Source of the DNA: Candidatus Falkowiibacteriota bacterium
GTDB taxonomy: Bacteria; Patescibacteriota; Patescibacteriia; Patescibacteriales; UBA12465
NCBI GenBank assembly: GCA_003554785.1
Contig: PWHG01000057.1
Coordinates: forward strand, 1 to 57,677
Length of the DNA: 57,677 bases
Direction of reading: 5' to 3'
Position numbers and translations under genes: made by a program. The stretch's first letter is position 1. Every line of letters begins with the position of its first letter. Below are positions 1 to 35,440 of the stretch, in pieces. The notes below the pieces were generated by a model, which saw only the letters and a program-made list of their open reading frames with translations, was not told the DNA's origin and did no database searches.

Positions 1-79
1 TATGACTAAAATTGACACTCAAAATAAGACGGATTTGGATCCCGCTATATCAAATATTCCTGCTAACAATAAACAAAAA

Positions 80-104
80 CAGACCTCTTGGTCTGTCTTT
101 GTCT
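80..104. terminator. Intrinsic terminator of the tRNA operon, possibly bidirectional
   Basis: A 6-bp stem (80-85 with 90-95) closes a TCTT loop. On the minus strand it is followed by a run of mostly T (complement of 70-79), so it fits as the end of the tig-smpB-ssrA-tRNA-Leu-tRNA-Gly transcript. The plus side is also T-rich and may stop a gene entering from the left edge. Confidence 0.6.
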
Positions 105-108
105 TGTG

Positions 109-180
109 AGCGGGTAACGGGAATCGAACCCGTCTCTTAACCTTGGCAAGGTCATGTAATAGCCACTATACCATACCCGC
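109..180 (-). tRNA. tRNA-Gly (GCC)
   Basis: On the minus strand the gene folds as a complete cloverleaf. The acceptor stem is GCGGGTA with TACCCGC, the T arm carries GGTTCGATTCC, and the anticodon loop TTGCCAA gives anticodon GCC. The discriminator base is T and no CCA is encoded, so a CCA-adding enzyme is needed. It lies 10 nt downstream of tRNA-Leu and just before a terminator, which makes it the last gene of the smpB-ssrA transcript. Confidence 0.95.
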
Positions 181-190
181 TTATTGCAAG

Positions 191-275
191 TGCCGCGGGG
201 GAGAATCGAACTCCCACGATAAAAAATATCATTGGATTTTAAGTCCAACGCGTCTACCAATTCCGCCACCGCGGC
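191..275 (-). tRNA. tRNA-Leu (TAA)
   Basis: This is a class II tRNA of 85 nt with a long variable arm. The acceptor stem is GCCGCGG with CCGCGGC. The anticodon stem TTGGA/TCCAA encloses the loop CTTAAAA, giving anticodon TAA. The discriminator is A and no CCA is encoded. It lies between tmRNA (12 nt upstream) and tRNA-Gly (10 nt downstream) on the same strand, so all three probably come from one precursor. Confidence 0.95.
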
Positions 276-287
276 CTTTTACAATTG

Positions 288-665
288 TGGAGATGATGGG
301 AGTTGAACCCATGTCTAATAAGTTCCTCTAAGCACATTTACAAAAATAGTTTAGTTTAAAATATTTCGTCTTAATCATATTAAACTAAACAAAATTGATT
401 AAGACTAGCTTCTTATTTTTCGAAATTAGCAAAGAAGCCTTGCTAATTTCTAAGTCTCAAATATGACACCGCGATCTAGCTCAGAGACAAAGCTAGGACG
501 ATGGTTGTAGCTATTAATTAAGCTGCAACAGGAGCGTAACTTGGAAGTTTCCAAGTAAACGCTTTGCCAGTTTTGGCAGTTATATTTTTAGGTTATTTTT
601 ACGTTTTAACCAAAACACGTTTTGAATGCTCAAATTCAATCTTATTATCGAATCCTGCCATCCCC
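288..665 (-). ncRNA. ssrA: Transfer-messenger RNA (tmRNA)
   Basis: tmRNA rescues stalled ribosomes together with SmpB. The 5' end GGGGATG (665 down to 659) pairs with the 3' CATCTCC (289-295), followed by discriminator A and no encoded CCA. The 5' domain carries the conserved CAGGATTCGA segment and the 3' end a T arm with GGTTCAACTCC. The tag reading frame runs from 577 to a TAA at 518-520 and encodes AKTGKAFTWKLPSYAPVAA, ending in the small hydrophobic proteolysis signal typical of tags. The first base of the mature RNA is also the last base of the smpB stop codon. The one-piece, non-permuted form is clear because both ends and the tag occur in standard order. Confidence 0.95.
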
Positions 666-1129
666 TATCTATATATTCTTTTTGTCAAAGTCCTGGTTTG
701 TCTTTCTATTTCCTTTCTCTTTAGGTCTTCTCGTTTGTCGTATTTTTTCTTTCCTTTAGCTAAAGCAAATTCAAGCTTTATCAAACCTCGTTTAGTATAT
801 ATTTTTACTGGTATTAATGTCAAGCCGGTTTGTTGGGTTTTGCCAATTAAATGACTGATTTCATTTTTATTTAGAAGTAGTTTTCTATCTCTTTTGGGAT
901 TATAATCATCAAGTTTTCCAGCAAGACGATATGGTGATATCTGAGCTTTAACTAAATATAGTTCTGATTTGTTGTTATTAGTTTTCCAGGCAATGTAGGC
1001 ACCACTTAGGTTAACTTGGCCATCTTTGACTGCTTTTACTTCATGACCCAGTAACATTAAACCAGCCTCATATTTTTCAAGTAGATGATAATCAAAACTA
1101 GCTCGTTTATTTTTGGCTAGAATCGGCAT
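665..1129 (-). CDS. smpB: SsrA-binding protein SmpB
   Basis: SmpB is the protein partner that carries alanyl-tmRNA to stalled ribosomes. The product has 154 residues. The start at 1129 is chosen because family members begin MPILAKNKRASFDY; a start at 1156 would add nine atypical residues. Visible family features are the N-terminal ILAKNKRA segment, the beta-barrel segment GHEVKAVKDGQVNLSGAY, and a basic C-terminal tail (KRKEIERQTRTLTKR) that enters the mRNA channel. The gene overlaps the end of tig by 23 nt and its TAG stop shares its G with the first base of ssrA, so the protein and its RNA partner are made from one transcript. Confidence 0.97.
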   Translation of the reverse strand: MPILAKNKRASFDYHLLEKYEAGLMLLGHEVKAVKDGQVNLSGAYIAWKTNNNKSELYLVKAQISPYRLAGKLDDYNPKRDRKLLLNKNEISHLIGKTQQTGLTLIPVKIYTKRGLIKLEFALAKGKKKYDKREDLKRKEIERQTRTLTKRIYR

Positions 1130-2408
1130 AATTCCATTCTTTGAGTTTTTTAACAATCTTATCGCTAAGTAGGGCGTGATTTAGGTGTCTTTTATATTCT
1201 AAACTATTGATTTGTTTTTGAGCTTCTTCTTGGCCGGCATAGGTTTTTTTGAGTTCTTCAATTTTATTATCAATTTCCTCGGAACTAACACTAATTTTTT
1301 CTTCTTTGCCGACTTCTTTTAGAATTAATGCGATTTTAATTCTTTTTACCGCATCAGGCATAAAATCTGTAAGCAACTGATCTTCAGTCTTTTTAAGGTG
1401 ACTTAGATAATCTTCAAATTTACCACCTTGAGCTTCTACGTTTTTCTTCATTTCTTCAAGCATTCCCTTGGCTTCATCTTTTACTACTTCTTCCGGAATT
1501 TCGCCAATATCACTTTTTTCAATTAAAGTTTCCATTAACTCTCTTTCTTTTCTCATTGATTCTTTTTTTTCTTTTTCCGCTAATACATTTTTCTTTATAG
1601 CTTCTTTTAACTCAGACATGCTGTTAAATTGTAGAGTTTTAGCAAAATCATCATTAAACTCTGGAACTTCTCTTTGTGTTACTTCTTTTACTTTAACGCT
1701 AAAGTCAACATTTTTTCCTGCTAAGTGTTTTTGGTGGTGGTCTTTTGGATATGTAAGGCTAAATTCTTTTGTTTCATCTTTTTTGGCACCAAGTAGTTTT
1801 TCATCAAAGCCGGGTAGAAAATAGTCTTTGCCTAAAACTACAGTTGTGTCTTTGCTTTCACCACCTTCAACTGGAGCACCGTCAATTGACATAGAGATAT
1901 CAAGAGTTAATTTATCTCCAGTTTCAGCTTGCCCATCTTTGGCTGACTCTTTGGCTTTCATTTCTTTTAATTGCTCTAGAGTTTTTTCAATTTCTTTATC
2001 ATCTACCTCATTTTGCTCATCTTTAATACTTAAGTCTTTATATTGACCTAATTTTACTTTTGGTAGCACGGGCATGGTTACCTTATAGGTAAAATCATTA
2101 TTGGGAGCAAGTTTAACTATTTCTACTTGAGGCTTTCCGGCTAATTGTTCACCTTCTAAATTTTTATCTAAAACTTCATCAATGGTAGCTCTAATTGCAA
2201 TGTTGGCGGATTCTTCTAAAATCGCCATTTCTCCAACTTTTTGTTTTAAGACATCGTAGGGAACCTTTCCTGGTCTAAAGCCCTCTACTTTTACATCTTT
2301 AGCAAGTTTTTGTGCTCCTTTTTCTAAATAAGGGTTAAACTCATCAAGACTGAGCGTAACTTCAAATTCAATTTGTGATTTTTCTAATTCTTTTTTGTTT
2401 GTTTGCAT
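1107..2408 (-). CDS. tig: Trigger factor, ribosome-associated chaperone
   Basis: Trigger factor binds the ribosome exit tunnel and shelters nascent chains. At 433 residues it has the usual family length. The N-terminal ribosome-binding domain contains the signature GFRPGKVP (residues 43-50), contacting L23. A FKBP-type peptidyl-prolyl isomerase domain lies at about 155-245 (VEGGESKDTTVVLGK, LPGFDEKLLGAKKDE), and the helical C-terminal chaperone arms fill the rest. It lies 60 nt downstream of the pyrophosphatase gene and overlaps smpB, so nascent-chain folding and ribosome rescue are transcriptionally linked here. Confidence 0.96.
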   Translation of the reverse strand: MQTNKKELEKSQIEFEVTLSLDEFNPYLEKGAQKLAKDVKVEGFRPGKVPYDVLKQKVGEMAILEESANIAIRATIDEVLDKNLEGEQLAGKPQVEIVKLAPNNDFTYKVTMPVLPKVKLGQYKDLSIKDEQNEVDDKEIEKTLEQLKEMKAKESAKDGQAETGDKLTLDISMSIDGAPVEGGESKDTTVVLGKDYFLPGFDEKLLGAKKDETKEFSLTYPKDHHQKHLAGKNVDFSVKVKEVTQREVPEFNDDFAKTLQFNSMSELKEAIKKNVLAEKEKKESMRKERELMETLIEKSDIGEIPEEVVKDEAKGMLEEMKKNVEAQGGKFEDYLSHLKKTEDQLLTDFMPDAVKRIKIALILKEVGKEEKISVSSEEIDNKIEELKKTYAGQEEAQKQINSLEYKRHLNHALLSDKIVKKLKEWNYADSSQK

Positions 2409-35098: not shown

Positions 35099-35440
35099 AT
35101 GTTGCCCCAAAAAAATCGACTAAAACTAAATAGCGATTTTTCTAAATTATTTAAAACCGGCCATAGTAATTATGGGCGGTTTATTGGAGTGAAAATAAAA
35201 GAAAATAATGAAGAACTAAATAAGTATGCCGTTGTAGTAAGCAATAAAATAAATAAAAGTGCTGTTAGAAGAAATTATATTAAGAGAAAAATAAAAGAGA
35301 AAATAAGAGAAATAGATAAAAGTTGTAAAAAAGGATTTAATTGTGTTATTATAGTTTTATCAGATATAAAAGAAGATGATTATTTAGAAGTAAAAAAAGA
35401 AATAATTAAAATTTTTACTAAATTAAAAATTATAAATTAA
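35099..35440 (+). CDS. rnpA: Ribonuclease P protein component
   Basis: The protein subunit that aids the RNase P RNA in tRNA 5' maturation. The 113-residue product has the opening [13 protein letters not shown] and the RNR-like segment [16 protein letters not shown] near 60. The family RNR motif is slightly changed to RRN. It is 11 nt after rpmH and 1 nt before yidD. Confidence 0.93.

Follow-up and report, generated by a model that had tools for sequence, protein, structure and literature searches.

In the 57,677-nt stretch of DNA analysed here (the window; contig PWHG01000057.1 of assembly GCA_003554785.1), the last base of the smpB stop codon is also the first base of the tmRNA encoded by ssrA. 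What is new, from sequence comparison, is that overlaps of this kind recur in many Patescibacteria and that a promoter for ssrA appears to be embedded in the smpB coding sequence. We consider it probable that smpB and ssrA constitute a compacted unit characterized by an embedded ssrA promoter, RNase P trimming at G1, a stop-less read-through message and an overlap that is tolerated; within this picture, we infer that the promoter is active, that the smpB message is cleaved and that SmpB is tagged.

The genes for trigger factor, SmpB, tmRNA, tRNA-Leu and tRNA-Gly are arranged head to tail (Table 1, in which minus-strand features are given in forward coordinates). The smpB product matches PF01668 over its full length and carries a C-terminal tail, which identifies it as a SmpB protein, and it is the single SmpB in the whole assembly. 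The tail, ending in LTKRIYR, is of normal length, within the range of the relatives, and the 3′ end of the gene reads ...TTG ACA AAA AGA ATA TAT AGA TAG on the minus strand. At its other end, smpB shares 23 nt with tig (1107-1129) and thus overlaps a neighbour on both sides. The first clear terminator of the unit follows tRNA-Gly, with a predicted fold of -21 kcal/mol (z -7.8).

The RF00023 match to ssrA covers the whole model (positions 1-374; 149 bits, E 1e-59). In the acceptor stem, GGGGATG (665-659) pairs with CATCTCC (295-289) over 7 bp, in a register that places the G3-U70 wobble at 663:291 and A73 at 288, that is, the alanine identity elements. With G1-C72, G3-U70 and A73 in the tRNA-like domain and a tag reading frame, ssrA encodes a one-piece tmRNA; G3-U70 was also found in 230 of 231 related tmRNAs, in a scan that maximizes acceptor pairing and rewards the wobble. 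Because ARAGORN and Rfam agree and both the 7-bp stem and the alanine-identity register point to the same nucleotide, G665 is assigned as G1 of the tmRNA and, at the same time, as the base that completes the stop codon, which bears out the overlap proposed in the preliminary description; a tmRNA 5′ end at any position other than 665 is rejected on the G3-U70 register. The 3′ end of ssrA (285-288) reads ACAA, CCA not being encoded, as in several relatives of its family; ACCA is encoded in many other tmRNAs of the class.

Table 1. Features of the smpB-ssrA locus and the RNase P protein gene of the window
Feature	Position	Strand	Details
Trigger factor (tig)	1107..2408	-	PF05697, PF05698, PF00254
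smpB CDS	665..1129	-	ATG 1129-1127, TAG 667-665; 154 aa; PF01668, E 1e-48
-35 hexamer TTGACA (apparent)	818..823	-	In smpB codons Leu-Thr
-10 hexamer TATACT (apparent)	794..799	-	In smpB codons Tyr-Thr; 18-nt spacer
Shared nucleotide	665	-	Third base of smpB TAG = tmRNA G1; RNase P predicted to cleave at 666/665
tmRNA (ssrA), one-piece	287..665	-	ARAGORN 665-287; RF00023 665-285
Tag reading frame AKTGKAFTWKLPSYAPVAA*	518..577	-	ARAGORN, gene positions 89-148
tRNA-Leu(UAA)	190..275	-	ARAGORN; downstream of ssrA, same transcription unit
tRNA-Gly(GCC)	108..180	-	ARAGORN; final gene of unit
Intrinsic terminator 3′ of tRNA-Gly	66..103	-	ACAGACC-AAGA-GGTCTGT, then T-rich tail
rnpA (RNase P protein)	35099..35440		

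The gene junction was compared across tmRNA loci from relatives of the class, an even sample of the phylum and 80 named loci from GTDB genomes, the nearest of these last being Falkowbacteria and other Parcubacteria-group genomes. This gave 245 unique smpB-ssrA pairs, nearly all from Patescibacteria, with spacers of up to 450 nt. The tmRNA 5′ ends of the relatives were anchored on the GGGG acceptor start; ARAGORN had misplaced two of them (L172 and L315), and L172 was set to +7. The two genes overlap by 1 to 24 nt in 16 of the 245 pairs (about 6%), and in 69 more the spacer is only 0-15 nt long. With d denoting the spacer length, negative for overlaps, the value is -1 in the window, G010, G032, G113 and G321; -8 in G045, G160, the second copy of G019, G233, G249 and a Gribaldobacterium; -10 in G147; -12 in G171; -21 in G190; and -24 in G007 and G014. 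A further case at -12 (L201), a smpB fragment at a contig edge, was left out of the 16. The short overlap values are set by the tmRNA itself: within GGGGATG, the incoming frame can end early only through G1 in TAG or through U6-G7-A8 as TGA, and the smpB frame of G045 ends at precisely this UGA, formed by tmRNA positions 6-8. The full 7-bp acceptor stem is kept in every overlapping locus examined. The assembly G019 holds two different tmRNAs and two SmpB matches (L125, L140), the duplicate being either a second copy or contamination.

An arrangement of this type has been described in Carsonella, where smpB and ssrA overlap and tmRNA maturation has been proposed to yield a stop-less smpB mRNA (Hudson, Lau and Williams 2014, PMC4131195), so that the idea of such a message is not original to this study. 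This is credited by Hudson et al., as cited there, to Mao 2009 (PMC4131195), and they reported it nowhere outside Carsonella (PMC4131195). As in Carsonella ruddii, the smpB stop of the window extends at least to nucleotide 1 of the co-directional tmRNA, the frame enters ssrA, a stop-less mRNA is predicted, the genome is reduced, and only some strains or relatives share the feature. Unlike in Carsonella, the window case belongs to the Patescibacteria, in which many separate lineages are affected, and it combines a normal SmpB C-terminal tail with an intact tmRNA. A search of the literature on ribosome rescue in the CPR found nothing on a smpB-ssrA overlap.

The distribution of the overlap does not resemble that of a conserved device. 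In the sister genus g2, which contains the nearest relatives of the window, d is +2 in four loci, +3 in one and +4 in another, with TAA, TAG or TGA as the stop, and in genus g5 one member has -1 and the others +5 to +34. When the overlap was mapped on a SmpB tree with 231 rows, 15 of which have it, 14 changes were required, compared with a mean of 14.7 after shuffling; well supported branches force 7 or more of these changes. The overlap labels are unclustered, without the conservation among close relatives looked for in a selected device of the arfA type. Nor is the overlap in excess: 5 unique loci have d = -1, compared with an average of 4.9 for each position from d = 0 to 13 and with about 6 predicted were the gene boundary immaterial, and the spacer distribution passes zero without a step. 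A neutral model with random tails even predicts 28 overlaps where 15 were seen, although this model is crude, tail length and spacer evolving together, and is not taken as proof of selection against overlap. Because the overlap is not conserved and does not exceed a smooth spacer distribution, it fits recurrent compaction, tolerated and not evidently selected, as far as the compared sequences go. The single-base overlap of the window probably arose through small deletions in an already short spacer and would have been tolerated rather than selected; in the alignment, it looks like a loss of 3 bases, from AGA-TAA-TC/GGGG to AGA-TA/GGGG (the slash preceding the GGGG of the tmRNA), plus another small loss upstream. 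An exception worth testing is genus g8, in which both members, G007 (L113) and G014 (L076), whose SmpB proteins are 87% identical, read 24 nt into the tmRNA. SmpB of these two ends in GDARHRQ, residues written by the tmRNA 5′ arm.

The likely consequences for the smpB message follow from the anatomy of the junction. As no terminator would fit between smpB and ssrA, a message begun upstream of smpB should also enter ssrA. RNase P would trim the tmRNA leader exactly at G1 (665), and a smpB-ssrA read-through transcript trimmed in this way would lose the last base of TAG and become stop-less, ending in ...AGA-UA, so that the A site would hold just two bases. A ribosome at this cut end would be a substrate for trans-translation, and the product, until tagged, would be a complete SmpB, with Arg154 as the last sense codon. 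As for the processing machinery, rnpA lies in the window, and RNase P RNA is present in all 20 other relatives searched; it was not found in the window's own assembly, which is 82% complete. A single protein with a release-factor domain was found, a class-I factor of 368 aa that is read as RF1 from context. Neither an ArfB-like protein nor RqcH was found in the genome, and thus the assembly, at 82% completeness, shows no backup rescue.

It is a serious possibility, which we would nevertheless put at less than even, that the overlap leaves the smpB message unaffected, either because translation precedes completion and folding of ssrA or because the cut message is degraded at once, so that almost no ribosome reaches the cut end. 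This explanation is compatible with compaction and denies only the stop-less step. According to the sequence, formation of the acceptor stem needs about 370 nt of further transcription, which would leave time for translation, and the smooth passage of the spacer distribution through zero is likewise what would be expected if overlap made no difference. Messages usually outlast their own transcription, however, which counts against it.

The preliminary description went further and suggested that the stop-less message provides feedback on the SmpB level. The loss of the complete stop codon is indeed predicted by the anatomy, but the comparison of relatives lends no support to the feedback, which we regard as unlikely to have been selected for. 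Under such a scheme, with tmRNA-SmpB plentiful, RNase P would render smpB mRNA stop-less and SmpB would be tagged and destroyed, whereas under scarcity untagged SmpB would accumulate. The same logic operates for ArfA in Escherichia coli, where RNase III cleavage generates a stop-less arfA mRNA and the regulation has been shown experimentally (PMC3985003). In both systems, processing ahead of the stop creates a trans-translation substrate (here a predicted one), the difference being that the cut considered here is the normal 5′ maturation of tmRNA and, like any regulation through it, is predicted from sequence. The multiple origins of the overlap and its persistence in genus g8 speak for feedback, as does the fact that the truncated SmpB would retain its whole conserved tail. 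Against it stand the spacers of sister genera and of most of genus g5, on which feedback as a conserved device fails, the lack of any excess of overlaps over neutral expectation, their lower number than in the random-tail model, and the failure to find, in the 82%-complete genome, an ArfB-like or RqcH protein that could release untagged SmpB.

The second component of the compacted unit is the apparent promoter. The sequence TTGACA-18-TATACT (823-794) is the best minus-strand promoter in a consensus scan, with 11 of 12 matches. Such a scan returns as many sites in shuffled as in real sequence and is no evidence by itself; hence, it is the comparison among relatives that carries the case. At the same codons, TTGACA is exact in 150 of 197 relatives and TATACT in 142 of 197. 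In pairs with d of up to 150 nt, the Leu codon of the -35 element is TTG in 92% of cases, compared with 23% as the background of those genes; the adjoining Thr codon is ACA in 74% against 29%, and the Thr codon of the -10 element is ACT in 95% against 35%. When 93 smpB columns were ranked by departure from the codon background, these three came first, fourth and second, respectively. When ACT is replaced as the second codon of the -10 element, AAT or AGT predominates, a different residue that keeps TATANT. Of the 192 pairs that have d of at most 150 nt and carry the LTxxPxxxY motif, 170 match both hexamers at 5 or more of 6 positions (170 out of 218 when every pair is included). No such match to both occurs in 25 smpB genes that have 1.2 kb or more of downstream sequence but lack ssrA, a group of which about 15 are Patescibacteria and part is from other phyla. 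A 26th row (L019) was excluded from that group, as it has ssrA at +5. The association between adjacent ssrA and the element is strong in a raw Fisher test (p 7e-16); after correction for the tree, 3.3 pairs stand for it and 0.1 against, too few for significance.

That the TTGACA and TATACT codons merely reflect codon or protein constraint is very improbable: they do encode the conserved protein motif LTLxPxKxYT, but the preference for TTG is far above that elsewhere in the same genes, the codons shift to CTN/ATC and TAC in smpB genes without downstream ssrA, and the residues after Tyr are mostly Thr, Asn or Ser, encoded by ACT, AAT or AGT, all of which fit TATANT. The element thus has the -35 and -10 hexamers, a spacing within 16-18 nt and the conservation beyond coding constraint that are expected of a sigma-70 promoter. 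In the wider phylum sample, it is less frequent, occupying the standard place in 19 of 33 adjacent pairs. Adjacent pairs without the embedded element often have a near-consensus promoter closer to ssrA (L120, L146, L171, L177, L351, L391, L395), such as TTGACA-17-TATAAT in L177, which suggests promoter turnover. Most likely, the embedded element is the ssrA promoter, kept throughout the class and in some of the wider phylum. The literature searched contained no earlier case of an ssrA promoter inside the smpB coding sequence. In Streptomyces, ssrA also lies 3′ of smpB and relies for most of its transcription on a separate promoter (PMC2635970); the window shares the gene order and, apparently, the separate promoter, which differs in lying within the smpB coding sequence and so constraining smpB codons.

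In the compacted unit as we picture it, the ssrA precursor is predicted to start near 787, with a leader of about 120 nt, and would span ssrA, tRNA-Leu and tRNA-Gly before ending at the terminator near 80-66. Given the apparent promoter inside smpB, most tmRNA need not derive from full-length smpB mRNA. The embedded promoter and the shared stop/G1 nucleotide could together be read as a built-in SmpB controller in Patescibacteria: polymerases crossing smpB would compete with the internal ssrA promoter, RNase P would turn finished smpB messages into substrates of their own system, and the SmpB:tmRNA ratio would be set without a regulator protein. We consider such a controller quite unlikely.

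Overlap of smpB and ssrA is no longer confined to Carsonella, which overturns the published statement to that effect, and nature offers around ten independent instances for testing the predicted feedback, among them a closely related pair of which one member has the overlap and the other lacks it (G045, L129, at -8, and G090, L149, at +3, whose SmpB proteins are 92% identical). Across the class and in some of the wider phylum, the promoter of a core small RNA apparently resides in the coding sequence of its partner protein, where it would dictate the choice of SmpB codons and even residues. Streamlined genomes would thereby provide, in the embedded ssrA promoter, a strong example of dual coding.
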